A stretch of 46,538 nt of DNA, taken from assembly GCF_003611695.1 (NCBI RefSeq), contig NZ_RAWE01000061.1, positions 1-46,538 on the forward strand. The letters are read 5' to 3'. Under the pieces are notes generated by a model. The model did no database searches, was not told the DNA's origin, and saw nothing but the letters and a program-made list of their open reading frames with translations. The stretch comes from Corallococcus carmarthensis. Lineage in GTDB: Bacteria > Myxococcota > Myxococcia > Myxococcales > Myxococcaceae. This document shows positions 3,170 through 7,388 of this stretch, piece after piece. Each line of letters begins with the position of its first letter. Position 1 is the stretch's first letter. A program made the translations under genes and the position numbers.

Positions 3170-3193
3170 GCGACCAGCGCGACCAAGCCTGAA

Positions 3194-3213
3194 ATCCATT
3201 CGATCGAATGGAT
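3194..3213. promoter_or_regulatory. HipB operator O1 (perfect 20-bp palindrome)
   Basis: ATCCATTCGATCGAATGGAT is identical to its own reverse complement. The position, symmetry and repetition upstream of hipB match the autoregulatory operators that HipB-type antitoxins bind. It ends one base before the first TTGACA. Confidence 0.8.
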
Positions 3214-3214
3214 G

Positions 3215-3242
3215 TTGACATGTTGGGCGGTTACGTTATGCG
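3215..3242 (+). promoter_or_regulatory. Promoter P1 for hipBA
   Basis: A consensus -35 (TTGACA, 3215-3220) is followed 15-16 bases later by TTATGC/TATGCG (3236-3242) as a weak -10. The promoter is bracketed by operators O1 and O2, so a bound antitoxin would be expected to block it. Confidence 0.55.
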
Positions 3243-3254
3243 TACTGGCCCGAA

Positions 3255-3274
3255 ATCCATTCGATCGGATGGAT
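3255..3274. promoter_or_regulatory. HipB operator O2 (one-mismatch palindrome)
   Basis: ATCCATTCGATCGGATGGAT differs from O1 at a single base. It lies just downstream of the P1 start region and directly upstream of the P2 -35. Confidence 0.78.
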
Positions 3275-3275
3275 A

Positions 3276-3303
3276 TTGACATGTTGGGCGGTCACGTTAT
3301 GCG
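3276..3303 (+). promoter_or_regulatory. Promoter P2 for hipBA
   Basis: This is the 61-base-shifted copy of P1: TTGACA at 3276-3281 and TTATGC/TATGCG at 3297-3303. It is bracketed by O2 and O3 and is nearer to hipB, so it is the likelier main start. Confidence 0.55.
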
Positions 3304-3315
3304 TACTGGCTCGAA

Positions 3316-3335
3316 ATCCATTCGACCGGATGGAC
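3316..3335. promoter_or_regulatory. HipB operator O3
   Basis: ATCCATTCGACCGGATGGA is the third, more diverged copy of the palindrome. It lies just before the hipB Shine-Dalgarno (AGGAG, 3339-3343), in the 5' leader. Confidence 0.72.
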
Positions 3336-3353
3336 TCCAGGAGCAAATGGTCC

Positions 3354-3608
3354 ATGGATCAACTTAAAGCCACTTGGATCCGCGCCCTTGCACAAACGGT
3401 CAAGACCCAACGCATAAAGCTTGGACTGACCCAACAAGACCTCAGCGTCCTAGCTGGGTGTGGGCCTGTTTTCATCTACGACATTGAGAGCGGCAGGAAG
3501 GCAACCCTGCGCTTGGACAAGCTTCTGGACGTCCTCAATGTGCTGGGACTCCAGTTGGCGATTGAGCCGCTTCAGCAACGCCTGCAGGCGAGTGAGCAAA
3601 CTTCATGA
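3354..3608 (+). CDS. hipB: HipB-type antitoxin, XRE-family repressor
   Basis: An 84-residue helix-turn-helix protein. The XRE domain runs from about residue 14 to 67: TQRIKLGLTQQDLSVLAG (helices 1-2), a recognition helix around GPVFIYDIESGRK, then RLDKLLDVLNVLGLQL. HipB proteins dimerise, neutralise HipA and repress their own operon; the palindromes just upstream fit that. The start at 3354 is chosen because AGGAG lies 10 bases before it; an earlier ATG at 3330 overlaps the third operator. The stop overlaps the hipA start (ATGA at 3605), the usual translational coupling of an antitoxin to its toxin. Base composition is lower in G+C than the neighbouring genes, which suggests acquisition by transfer. 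Confidence 0.88.
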   Translation: MDQLKATWIRALAQTVKTQRIKLGLTQQDLSVLAGCGPVFIYDIESGRKATLRLDKLLDVLNVLGLQLAIEPLQQRLQASEQTS

Positions 3609-4837
3609 TTCGCCCGACTGATGTTGCGGTCGCAGAGGTATGGCGAGAATCCACCCACGTTGGCTCTATTACTCGAACAACTCACGGTTCCAACTTCGAG
3701 TACACGGCGGACTTCTTTGAGCAACACAAAGGTATGCCCAGAGGCATCGCCGTTCACCTGCCCTACTCAAGGCGCCGCACCGAAACTCTAGGCACCAACC
3801 TGCACACCTATTTCGCAGGGCTCCTTCCTGAAGGACTGCGCCTACGGGTTCTCGTTGAACATACCAAGACATCTGAGGACGACCTTCTCAGTCTGCTGGT
3901 GGCGTCGGGGGTCGATACTGTTGGGGATCTTTCCGTCATTCCTCCTGGACAACCCTTTCCCCAAACAGCGTCTCGAAGAGCGAAATGGAAGCCCGAGTCC
4001 GTTCTCTTCTCCGAACTCTTTGCCCAAAGCCTCCCGCCCATGGGGGTGGCAAGCACCGAGCCGACGATCCCAGGCGTTCAGGAGAAGATCTCCGCGTCCA
4101 CCATCTCCTTCCCGGTCTCCTCGTCGGGACAGCGGGACTACATCGTGAAGCTCAACCCGCGGGGAAAGCCTGAGCTCGTGCGCAACGAGCACTTCTTCAT
4201 GGGCATGGCGAAGCAGTGCGGCTTGCGCGTCGCCACCACAAAGCTCATCCATGACCGCGATGGAAACGACGGGCTGCTCGTCGAGCGCTTTGATCGCAGC
4301 TGGATGAAGGTGGAGAAACGCCTGCGGCGCGTACATCAGGAGGATGCCTGCCAGTTCCTGGATCGCTACACCAACGACAAGTACCGCCTCACATGCGCTG
4401 CCATCGCTGAGGGCCTGCGCGACAACTGCGTCGCGCCCGTCCCTGAACTCGCGCGCTTCCTTCTGCTTCTCGCGTTCAGCTATCTCATCGGGAACGGGGA
4501 CCTGCACGCCAAGAACGTGAGCATTCTGGCGGATGGGCCCGACGGCGGCTTCCGCCTGTCGCCTGCCTACGACCTGCTCACCACCCTGCCCTACGGCGAT
4601 CAGCGCATGGCCCTGAAGTTCGAAGGGCGCGACGACAACCTCCGGCGCGCCCACTTCATCGCTTTTGGTGAGCGCTACGGCGTGAATGCGAAGGCCGTCA
4701 GCGTCATGCTCGACAAATTGTGCGCCAGCGCGGAGCCCTGGCTGGAGCGTCTGGAGGAAATCGGCTTCGACGCGCTCCGCACGGACTTCCTGCGGCGGAC
4801 GATGCACAAGCGCCTGGGGGAACTCCGCGCCCTGTAG
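3605..4837 (+). CDS. hipA: HipA-type Ser/Thr kinase toxin
   Basis: A 410-residue HipA-family kinase. E. coli HipA phosphorylates glutamyl-tRNA synthetase and slows growth. Visible parts: an N-terminal subdomain (about 1-115, with HTYFAGLLPEGLRLR), the P-loop-like segment TIPGVQEKIS (154-163), an ATP-site Lys at 182 (YIVKLNP), the catalytic loop GNGDLHAKN with Asp299 and Asn304, and the metal-binding Asp323 in AYDLL. All kinase residues seem present, so the toxin is probably active. At the place of the E. coli autophosphorylation Ser150 there is Thr154. The first half is A+T-richer than the second. The gene overlaps hipB by four bases and ends four bases before a convergent GST gene. The target is unknown. 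Confidence 0.92.
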   Translation: MIRPTDVAVAEVWRESTHVGSITRTTHGSNFEYTADFFEQHKGMPRGIAVHLPYSRRRTETLGTNLHTYFAGLLPEGLRLRVLVEHTKTSEDDLLSLLVASGVDTVGDLSVIPPGQPFPQTASRRAKWKPESVLFSELFAQSLPPMGVASTEPTIPGVQEKISASTISFPVSSSGQRDYIVKLNPRGKPELVRNEHFFMGMAKQCGLRVATTKLIHDRDGNDGLLVERFDRSWMKVEKRLRRVHQEDACQFLDRYTNDKYRLTCAAIAEGLRDNCVAPVPELARFLLLLAFSYLIGNGDLHAKNVSILADGPDGGFRLSPAYDLLTTLPYGDQRMALKFEGRDDNLRRAHFIAFGERYGVNAKAVSVMLDKLCASAEPWLERLEEIGFDALRTDFLRRTMHKRLGELRAL

Positions 4838-6142: not shown

Positions 6143-6448
6143 CGTGCATCCTCCCTCCCCCCGGCGTGTGACGACCGAGATGCTACCGCACGACAGGCGC
6201 CAGCTCCCAACCACCCCGGGAAGGCGCCCGGACGGCTGTGTTCCGGGGAACGCAACCGCGCGAAGTCAGAGGCGGACACAGATCCGCACCCCCAACGTAG
6301 TGCGTTCCTGACGCGGCGCACCAAGCACCTCACGGGTTCTGGGTCGCGGCTGTCCGGCACCCGACGCGTCGCGGTGGGAGACGTCCAGTGCGCGTCAGGT
6401 GATGGGTGCGCGCCACGTCCGCGCACCGCCACGGAGGGCCCGCGGGCC
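6143..6448. other. Divergent intergenic region
   Basis: About 306 bases lie between the divergent starts of the cyclase (minus) and the unknown basic protein (plus). It must hold both promoters, but I see no convincing -35/-10 pair, palindrome or coding signal, only the cyclase ribosome-binding site at its left edge and a GGAGG (6433-6437) at its right edge. Confidence 0.5.
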
Positions 6449-7288
6449 ATGATCCACTCAGACGAGAAGGTCCGGCAGATGGCGCGTTCGCTGCTGCCGT
6501 CGAAGAACCGGGAGGCCGCGCGCGCGGCGCGCAGGCACATCCACCGCTCGGCCCGCAAGGAGGCCCGCCAGGAGCTGGCGACGTGGATGCGGTTCGGGGA
6601 CATGGAGCACGACCTGCCTCCCTTCGCGCCGTGGGAGCGGCCGGAGATCCGCTTGGAAGTGAGGTGGCGGCGCGGCGGCGACAAGGTGAACCCGTTCATC
6701 CGCTGGGCCACCGCTCGCACGCGCGAGGTGCGCCGGGAGGATCGCCTGAGCCACGTGCGGCGCCTGCTGCCCCAGGGCGTCATCGGCGAGCACGCGCTGG
6801 GCCACGTGGAGTACGCGAAAGCGTTCCGGGACCCCGTCCTCGACGCGTGGCGCCCTCTGCAATGGGTGCGCTGGGAGATGAACCGCAAGGGGCACCGGAT
6901 GGATCGCGGCGAGCTGGCCCAGCTGCTGCGAGCGCTCCTGATGGAGCCCGACGGCCACCGCACCTTCAATCGCTTCCTGCGCGAGCGTCGCGCCTGGGCA
7001 TCCTCGCCGCGCAACCCGGAGTCCTGGAGCAGGGGCCTTCCGCCGCACCGGCCGCTGCTGGGCGCGCATGACATCCTTCCCTTCCTGGACACCCTGAAGC
7101 TGGATGCCAGGGGCAACAACGTCCGCGCCAGGGAACAGCAGGAGCCGCCGACGCAATGGGTGCAGCTGTTCCTCCGGCGCTTCAAGGACCACCGCGGCCA
7201 CATCCCCTCCGTGCGCGCCGCGCTGGAGGCGGAAGGACTGATGGAACCCGTCGTCACGGCACGACCGCGGCAGGTCCACGGGCGATGA
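6449..7288 (+). CDS. Unknown basic cytoplasmic protein
   Basis: A 279-residue protein I do not recognise. It is strongly basic and helical, rich in Arg and Trp (for example RRHIHRSARKEARQEL, PLQWVRWEMNRKGHRMDRGE), with no signal peptide or membrane segment. Four Trp-containing blocks are spaced through it and a Lys/Arg-rich tail ends it. The charge could mean nucleic-acid binding, but no known fold is visible. The start at 6449 is preceded by GGAGG (6433-6437). A collapsed copy of its two ends lies directly downstream, so the family has duplicated in tandem here. Confidence 0.7.
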   Translation: MIHSDEKVRQMARSLLPSKNREAARAARRHIHRSARKEARQELATWMRFGDMEHDLPPFAPWERPEIRLEVRWRRGGDKVNPFIRWATARTREVRREDRLSHVRRLLPQGVIGEHALGHVEYAKAFRDPVLDAWRPLQWVRWEMNRKGHRMDRGELAQLLRALLMEPDGHRTFNRFLRERRAWASSPRNPESWSRGLPPHRPLLGAHDILPFLDTLKLDARGNNVRAREQQEPPTQWVQLFLRRFKDHRGHIPSVRAALEAEGLMEPVVTARPRQVHGR

Positions 7289-7388
7289 TCCACTCGGATG
7301 AAAAGGTCCGGCAGATGGCGCGCTCGCTGCTGCCGTCCACGGCACGCTGAAGGCGGAAGGACTGCTGTCGCCCTTCTGCCACCACTGA
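7285..7388 (+). pseudogene. Collapsed tandem duplicate of the 6449-7288 gene
   Basis: The ATG at 7285 overlaps the previous stop (ATGA). The next 18 codons repeat the upstream gene's N-terminus (MIHSDEKVRQMARSLLPS) with only a few synonymous changes. The copy then stops at 7350. In another frame, LKAEGLLSPF and a stop at 7386-7388 match the parent's C-terminal LEAEGLMEP. About 250 internal codons are missing and the frame is broken. It is a remnant and not expected to be functional, although the 21-residue ORF could still be translated by coupling. Confidence 0.8.

Follow-up and report, generated by a model that had tools for sequence, protein, structure and literature searches.

Upstream of the toxin-antitoxin operon hipBA of Corallococcus carmarthensis lie three similar palindromes that recur every 61 bp and that quite probably form an autoregulatory HipBA operator array, with the pitch acting as a conserved geometric constraint. 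The array occupies positions 3191-3343 of the window, which is the whole 46,538-nucleotide stretch of DNA that was analyzed (contig NZ_RAWE01000061.1 of assembly GCF_003611695.1). It is not peculiar to C. carmarthensis, as such arrays are the rule in its hipBA clade. It is a real, well-conserved array of a known kind, and its unusual part is a locally duplicated promoter.

Operator O1 (3194-3213) is a perfect 20-bp palindrome, ATCCATTCGATCGAATGGAT, in which 10 of 10 pairs match. O2 (3255-3274) keeps 9 of 10 pairs, with one broken, and O3 (3316-3335), 18 nt from the hipB start, keeps 7 of 10; none of the three is assigned to a strand. The operator letters in O1 and O2 are ATCCN12GGAT. Measured start to start on a 22-nt direct repeat present three times, the pitch is 61 bp from O1 to O2 and again 61 bp from O2 to O3. 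A preliminary description of the stretch had given three units with a 61-base period, O1 being perfect, O2 carrying one mismatch, and O3 diverged, and the coordinates confirm this. It had also set the period at close to six helical turns, with bound dimers on the same face. This is roughly right, but at 10.5 bp per turn 61 bp makes 5.8 turns. An exact six-turn, same-face spacing is therefore ruled out, and a constant offset seems to be what is fixed. Even when up to 3 mismatches are allowed, the O1 pattern matches only O1, O2, and O3 in the whole 10.8-Mb genome, where the reversed O1 pattern, used as a control, gives 0 matches. With the palindrome pattern confined to the hipBA array, a dispersed repeat is ruled out. 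The AGGAG at 3339-3343 on the forward strand is the likely ribosome-binding site of hipB, judging by sequence.

Operator arrays in related hipBA loci

Related loci came from nested genome searches with differing E limits (18 of 96 family, 18 of 145 order, and 22 of 195 phylum genomes), and named genomes added 30 loci. Removal of three loci without HipB by the first search and of seven duplicates reduced the 53 loci to 43, which span Myxococcota, Bdellovibrionales, Legionella, and others. A palindromic operator model was seeded with O1, O2, and O3 of C. carmarthensis and then refined, and each locus was rescanned with a model trained on other clades only (13 single-linkage clusters at 55% HipA identity). 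The site threshold was that passed by 5% of shuffles of the same region. Three operators were found in 26 loci, four in 6, two in 8, one in 2, and none in 1; that is, at least two in 40 of the 43 loci and at least three in 32. Control stretches of equal length inside hipA held no site in 42 of 43 cases and one site in the other. Neighboring operators were 60 to 62 bp apart in 65 of 78 spacings (60 bp in 12, 61 bp in 41, and 62 bp in 12). By position, this was true of 33 of 40 last, 28 of 32 penultimate, and 4 of 6 third spacings, and 37 of the 43 loci had at least one spacing in this range. The frozen model was also applied to 32 further loci, of which 14 repeated loci analyzed before and one repeated another of the 32. 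In the nine new non-redundant loci of the clade, 15 of 15 spacings were 60 to 62 bp, and the eight others (L036, L070-L073, and L076-L078), which encode HipB relatives, showed no such array by the frozen model.

Spacers within one relative's locus are 26 to 51% identical (31 pairs), which means that the pitch is kept and the spacer sequence is not. Because the pitch stays mostly within one bp across large evolutionary distances while the spacers are unconserved, the geometry itself appears to be selected, and this suggests that the repressors, once bound, have to stand in a set arrangement. The preliminary description had proposed a search for the palindrome upstream of hipB in relatives, and related palindromes are indeed found there. 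Since two to four operators at mostly 60 to 62 bp are the rule in the clade, the period predates the duplication in C. carmarthensis that is described below, and the idea that the repeated unit itself accounts for the array is not supported.

The array and hipBA are also jointly present or absent at one site within the genus, between a HAD gene and a GST gene. The upstream HAD gene is present in 16 of 16 Corallococcus genomes compared. In 13 of these, the HAD and GST genes lie 2 to 30 nt apart with no hipBA between them, and no operator occurs in the 400 nt after HAD; in the other 3, C. carmarthensis among them, the array follows HAD. The earlier proposal that hipBA has an operator array, and that a promoter-like element lies between its operators, is supported.

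Several individual loci showed features of their own. In L006, both spacers are 52 bp, eleven more than in C. carmarthensis, and look as though a whole unit had been copied following a one-turn insertion. L020 has five operators at 41, 31, 41, and 42 bp, none on the 61-bp pitch. The last operator of L014 to L019 and L022 lies within the predicted hipB reading frame, so that operator letters also encode early residues (e.g., MARKSSRSAG in L016). A possible hipB start ATG lies in the last palindrome of L010 (Myxococcus type), 57 bp past the previous operator, and, by eye only, within the last palindrome of L008 and L009 (also Myxococcus type). In L075, a genome from the genus of Legionella quinlivanii, the HipB match has an in-frame TAA.

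Promoter-like elements and the duplicated unit

Both spacers of the C. carmarthensis array carry a promoter-like element of the form TTGACA-16-TATGCG on the forward strand. P1 (3215-3242) lies in the O1-O2 spacer, with TTGACA at 3215-3220 and TATGCG at 3237-3242, and P2 (3276-3303) in the O2-O3 spacer, with TTGACA at 3276-3281 and TATGCG at 3298-3303; the TTGACA-type elements reported earlier in two units, between operators, are therefore in place. Each TTGACA starts one base after its operator (O1 or O2). The −35 and −10 letters are identical in the two elements, and the −10 element is weak. Under a softer sigma-70 model, the O2-O3 spacer scores at p 0.03 and the O1-O2 spacer at p 0.08 against 100 shuffles. 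A search for a terminator found none. In the relatives, spacers of 60 to 62 bp were scored against shuffles with a simple sigma-70 model. The mean z was 1.14 in the last spacer, with 15 of 42 at p ≤ 0.05, compared to 0.15 in the penultimate spacer, with 4 of 34 at p ≤ 0.05, and the last spacer outscored the penultimate one in 23 of 31 paired loci (Wilcoxon p 0.003). This concentration of the signal in the last spacer points to O1, O2, promoter, O3, and hipB as the common plan, which looks ancestral.

What sets C. carmarthensis apart is that the more upstream of its two spacers nearly duplicates the one that bears the promoter. Unit A (3187-3247, forward strand; O1 and P1) and unit B (3248-3308, forward strand; O2 and P2) are identical at 57 of 61 positions and differ at 3190, 3207, 3214, and 3232; the two spacers are 93% identical. 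No near-identical spacers occur among the 31 other spacer pairs of the clade or among 45 equal-spaced triplets of the wider survey described below. A repeated promoter is thus as unusual as had been suggested, but the operator array itself is common. Compared by eye with the units of three relatives, the B letter, and never the A letter, occurs in at least one of them at 3207, 3214, and 3232, and at 3190 they split between the two letters. Because the A letters deviate at three of the four differences, unit A may be the younger copy. The unit A change at 3207 turns O1 into a perfect palindrome.

In the reading that we favor, HipB dimers, alone or with HipA, would occupy O1, O2, and O3. O2 and O3 would bracket the operon promoter P2, with transcription starting just upstream of O3, so that bound HipB would block RNA polymerase. 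Neighboring complexes held at a set distance and rotation could touch or could bend the DNA cooperatively. Such contact or shared bending is suggested by the O1-O2 interval, which is as strict as O2-O3 and usually lacks promoter signal. A recent duplication or conversion would then have turned the O1-O2 interval into a replica of the unit that carries the promoter. P1 would thereby have been gained as a second promoter, probably a weak one, controlled in the same way. The duplicated unit may raise or smooth expression; the preliminary description had proposed that 5' copies could tune repression or persistence switching.

A number of observations weigh against this reading. Thirteen of the 78 spacings in relatives fall outside 60 to 62 bp, with 72 and 72 bp in L006 (C. 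interemptor, of the same genus); 31, 41, and 42 bp in L020; and 57, 58, 75, 86, 89, 125, 135, and 199 bp in L010, L011, L012, L017, L021, and L048. Some of these off-pitch cases look like missed or spurious sites. The left-out model found one site in each of L016 and L051 and none in L037; in L037 and L051, however, a model-free search does turn up 61-bp pairs. The left-out test was itself trained on sites from a model seeded with the C. carmarthensis operators. A strict sigma-70 scan did not find a promoter, and the scores of P1 and P2 under the softer model are modest. Finally, the authors of a study on a Legionella hip operon think intermediate occupancy possible there, unlike the cooperativity in Escherichia coli (PMC10653801, in the part available).

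The pitch might instead be kept merely to fit a promoter between operators, with no contact between complexes. The last spacer, which bears the promoter signal and is 60 to 62 bp in 33 of 40 loci, fits this view, but the penultimate spacer is equally strict (28 of 32) with a signal near background (4 of 34). Moreover, the clades at 27 to 28 bp leave too little room for a whole promoter, and their 54- to 56-bp pairs look as if evenly repeated, so we consider this explanation unlikely. That the period reflects nothing more than one operator-promoter unit duplicated recently in tandem seems hardly credible. The near identity of units A and B (57 of 61), with A apparently changed at three of the four differences (by eye), is what such a duplication would leave, but O3 keeps to this pitch although the spacer is not copied a third time. 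Because relatives with unrelated spacers also hold 60 to 62 bp, duplication accounts for the second promoter and not for the pitch; it is rejected as the cause of the latter and retained as the origin of the former.

Two further alternatives concern what acts at these sites. A regulator other than HipB could bind the palindromes, given that the binding of C. carmarthensis HipB to O1, O2, and O3 is something that we infer. However, the palindrome type and pitch track the Hip clade, and the sites are confined to hipBA in the C. carmarthensis genome and absent where hipBA is absent. A Legionella HipB also binds its own array (PMC10653801, in the part available), and a different binder therefore appears most improbable. 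It is doubtful, too, that P1 is the main or a co-equal promoter whose duplication doubles expression or stages derepression. P1 and P2 do share identical −35 and −10 letters, but in relatives it is the last spacer that is enriched in promoter signal, the penultimate one being near background, and transcripts from P1 would need to cross two more operators.

Pitches in other Hip clades and in known systems

Similar palindrome pairs upstream of hipB were sought with a model-free search, in 22 loci first and then in a wider set. HipA_C was found in at least 120 of 195 Myxococcota genomes and at least 180 of 369 genomes of Legionella's class; 60 automatic loci and 120 hand-chosen regions were taken from these, and the earlier loci and ten plasmid stretches were added. 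A HipB-HipA pair was recognized in 188 of the 224 survey loci. The 36 HipA_C loci without a recognized pair, many of them in Myxococcaceae, include L104, L106, L108, L114-L116, L118-L120, and L122-L128. The best palindrome pair beat the 99th percentile of 100 shuffles in 115 of the 188 loci. Of the 188 control stretches taken from inside hipA, 10 also did so, more than the roughly 2 expected. The 115 best distances were 27 to 28 bp in 15 loci, 30 to 33 in 12, 39 to 42 in 13, 48 to 50 in 21, 54 to 56 in 5, 60 to 62 in 18, 71 to 72 in 6, 98 to 100 in 10, and elsewhere in 15.

Single-linkage grouping of the loci at 50% HipA identity gave 49 clusters, 38 of which had a signal; 35 of the 38 were self-consistent, and the other 3 were left out as inconsistent. 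Distances of at least 84 bp and of 53 to 57 bp were halved as two periods. Across the 35 clusters, the pitch has a period of 10.75 bp (R 0.67), and 0 of 5000 uniform draws were as high, although this uniform null overstates the significance because clusters share ancestry. Without the clusters at least 45% identical to the 61-bp set, the remaining 29 pitches, which retain one 61-bp cluster (L098, 44.7% identity to that set), give 10.65 bp (R 0.63), again with 0 of 5000. Pitches lie within 1.5 bp of 28+11n in 27 of the 35 clusters and in 21 of the 29, with 27% expected; these figures overstate the strength, as the rungs were picked after part of the data had been seen. On a FastTree tree of 139 HipA proteins (155 rows before those under 200 residues and identical rows were removed), the pitch classes 28, 31, 40, 50, 61, and 72 need at least 17 changes, a count that omits 13 of the 139 rows classed as other. 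This speaks against one inheritance. The tree is a quick one, with 35 of 135 inner branches poorly supported and a program warning of long branches meeting.

The pitches of Hip clades thus fall near 27 to 28, 39 to 40, 49 to 50, 61, and 72 bp, about one helical turn apart. This may be because HipB2A2 complexes bound to adjacent operators have to come together at a set rotation if they are to assemble into a higher-order repressor, in which case the pitch could change by whole turns only. Each Hip clade would then hold its own pitch on a helical ruler with rungs about one DNA turn apart, a proposal that we believe and doubt in about equal measure. C. carmarthensis would stand on the rung at 61 bp, and its array would contain a newly duplicated unit that bears a promoter. 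Speaking against the ruler, 8 of the 35 clusters lie off the 28+11n rungs (30, 31, 31, 32, 33, 41, 41, and 78 bp), and the clades at 30 to 33 and 41 bp, which are off the helical-turn rungs, would require a second phase.

Known systems offer several comparisons, as far as the available parts of the cited accounts go. In Legionella pneumophila HipBST, three evenly spaced operators upstream of hipB are each shifted by HipB, O1 overlaps a predicted promoter, and the motifs occur elsewhere only at a likely duplicate locus (PMC10653801). The toxin is split into HipS and HipT, with HipS neutralizing; O2 and O3 are asymmetric, and the 18-nt operators are separated by 53-bp gaps (PMC10653801), or about 71 bp center to center if the gaps run from end to start. 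C. carmarthensis likewise has three similar operators at equal distances ahead of hipB, but its toxin is unsplit and its pitch is 61 bp. Its near-identical promoter-bearing spacers have no counterpart described in the available part of the HipBST account (PMC10653801). In E. coli K-12 hipBA, HipA is a corepressor and the operator is bent by 70 degrees (PMC3376134, PMC3920265). The operators there are TATCCN8GGATA (PMC3376134), with half-sites closer than in ATCCN12GGAT, and the centers are 28 bp apart by our own count on the published O1O2 oligonucleotide, compared to 61 bp in C. carmarthensis, whose array is thus not of the E. coli type. The 28 bp of E. coli and the ~71 bp of Legionella would fall on rungs. 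For Caulobacter crescentus hipBA1 and hipBA2, repeats at intervals fitting the E. coli HipA/HipB/promoter complex were noted as a speculation (PMC7029023). In yefM-yoeB, altered spacing of two antitoxin palindromes perturbs binding to one, and spacing matters for cooperativity (PMC3920265), although the antitoxin and toxin are unrelated and the palindromes are 12 bp apart. Beyond the Legionella and Caulobacter remarks, a pitch conserved across clades was not met in the literature covered on Hip operator spacing, which leaves out most subscription journals.

Operator number in hipBA-type operons, together with cross-talk between HipB and HipA, bears on the frequency of the tolerant state. The conserved pitch offers a route to annotating HipB operators in genomes without binding data, and the duplicated promoter unit of C. 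carmarthensis is a natural variant for relating promoter number to repression. Of the two, the family-wide helical pitch is a more interesting lead than the local duplication.

The hipBA genes and their surroundings

The gene pair that follows the array is, by its domains, an ordinary HipBA module whose toxin is not split. The antitoxin and repressor gene hipB (3354-3608, forward strand) encodes an HTH_3 domain (E 1.5e-8) and has an alternative in-frame ATG at 3330, inside O3. The toxin kinase gene hipA (3605-4837, forward strand) overlaps hipB by 4 nt and encodes Couple_hipA (E 5.8e-16) and HipA_C (E 2.7e-47), both above their cut-offs, in a single 410-aa protein. A two-domain toxin with a small helix-turn-helix antitoxin gene directly upstream on the same strand corresponds to a HipBA type II module, and the toxin is not divided as in HipBST. 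HipB scores 68.3 bits against NCBIfam couple_hipB, under the cut-off of 71.65, and its closest solved HipB is Legionella HipB(Lp) of HipBST (8ezt, E 5.8e-10). HipA aligns with solved HipT and HipA chains across the catalytic region, including GNGDLHAKN and SPAYDLL, which we take to be the catalytic and metal-binding stretches.

The G+C content of 3170-3608 is 53 to 55%, compared to 72 to 73% in the flanking HAD and GST genes. This low G+C content and the absence from 13 of 16 genomes indicate that hipBA is accessory in Corallococcus. A phage or plasmid origin is rejected, as no viral contig matched the HipA patterns in a search that detects close relatives only, HipB had no match among phage records at E 1e-4, and the four plasmid records with HipA at E 1e-40 were all below 60% identity. 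The same genome has two further HipA_C genes (C56:4677-5390 and C134:13292-13954), where the O1 pattern does not occur. Elsewhere in the window, an 86-nt direct repeat, 83% identical, lies at 6416-6501 and 7252-7337, and each copy contains an identical MIHSDEKVRQMARSLLPS start.
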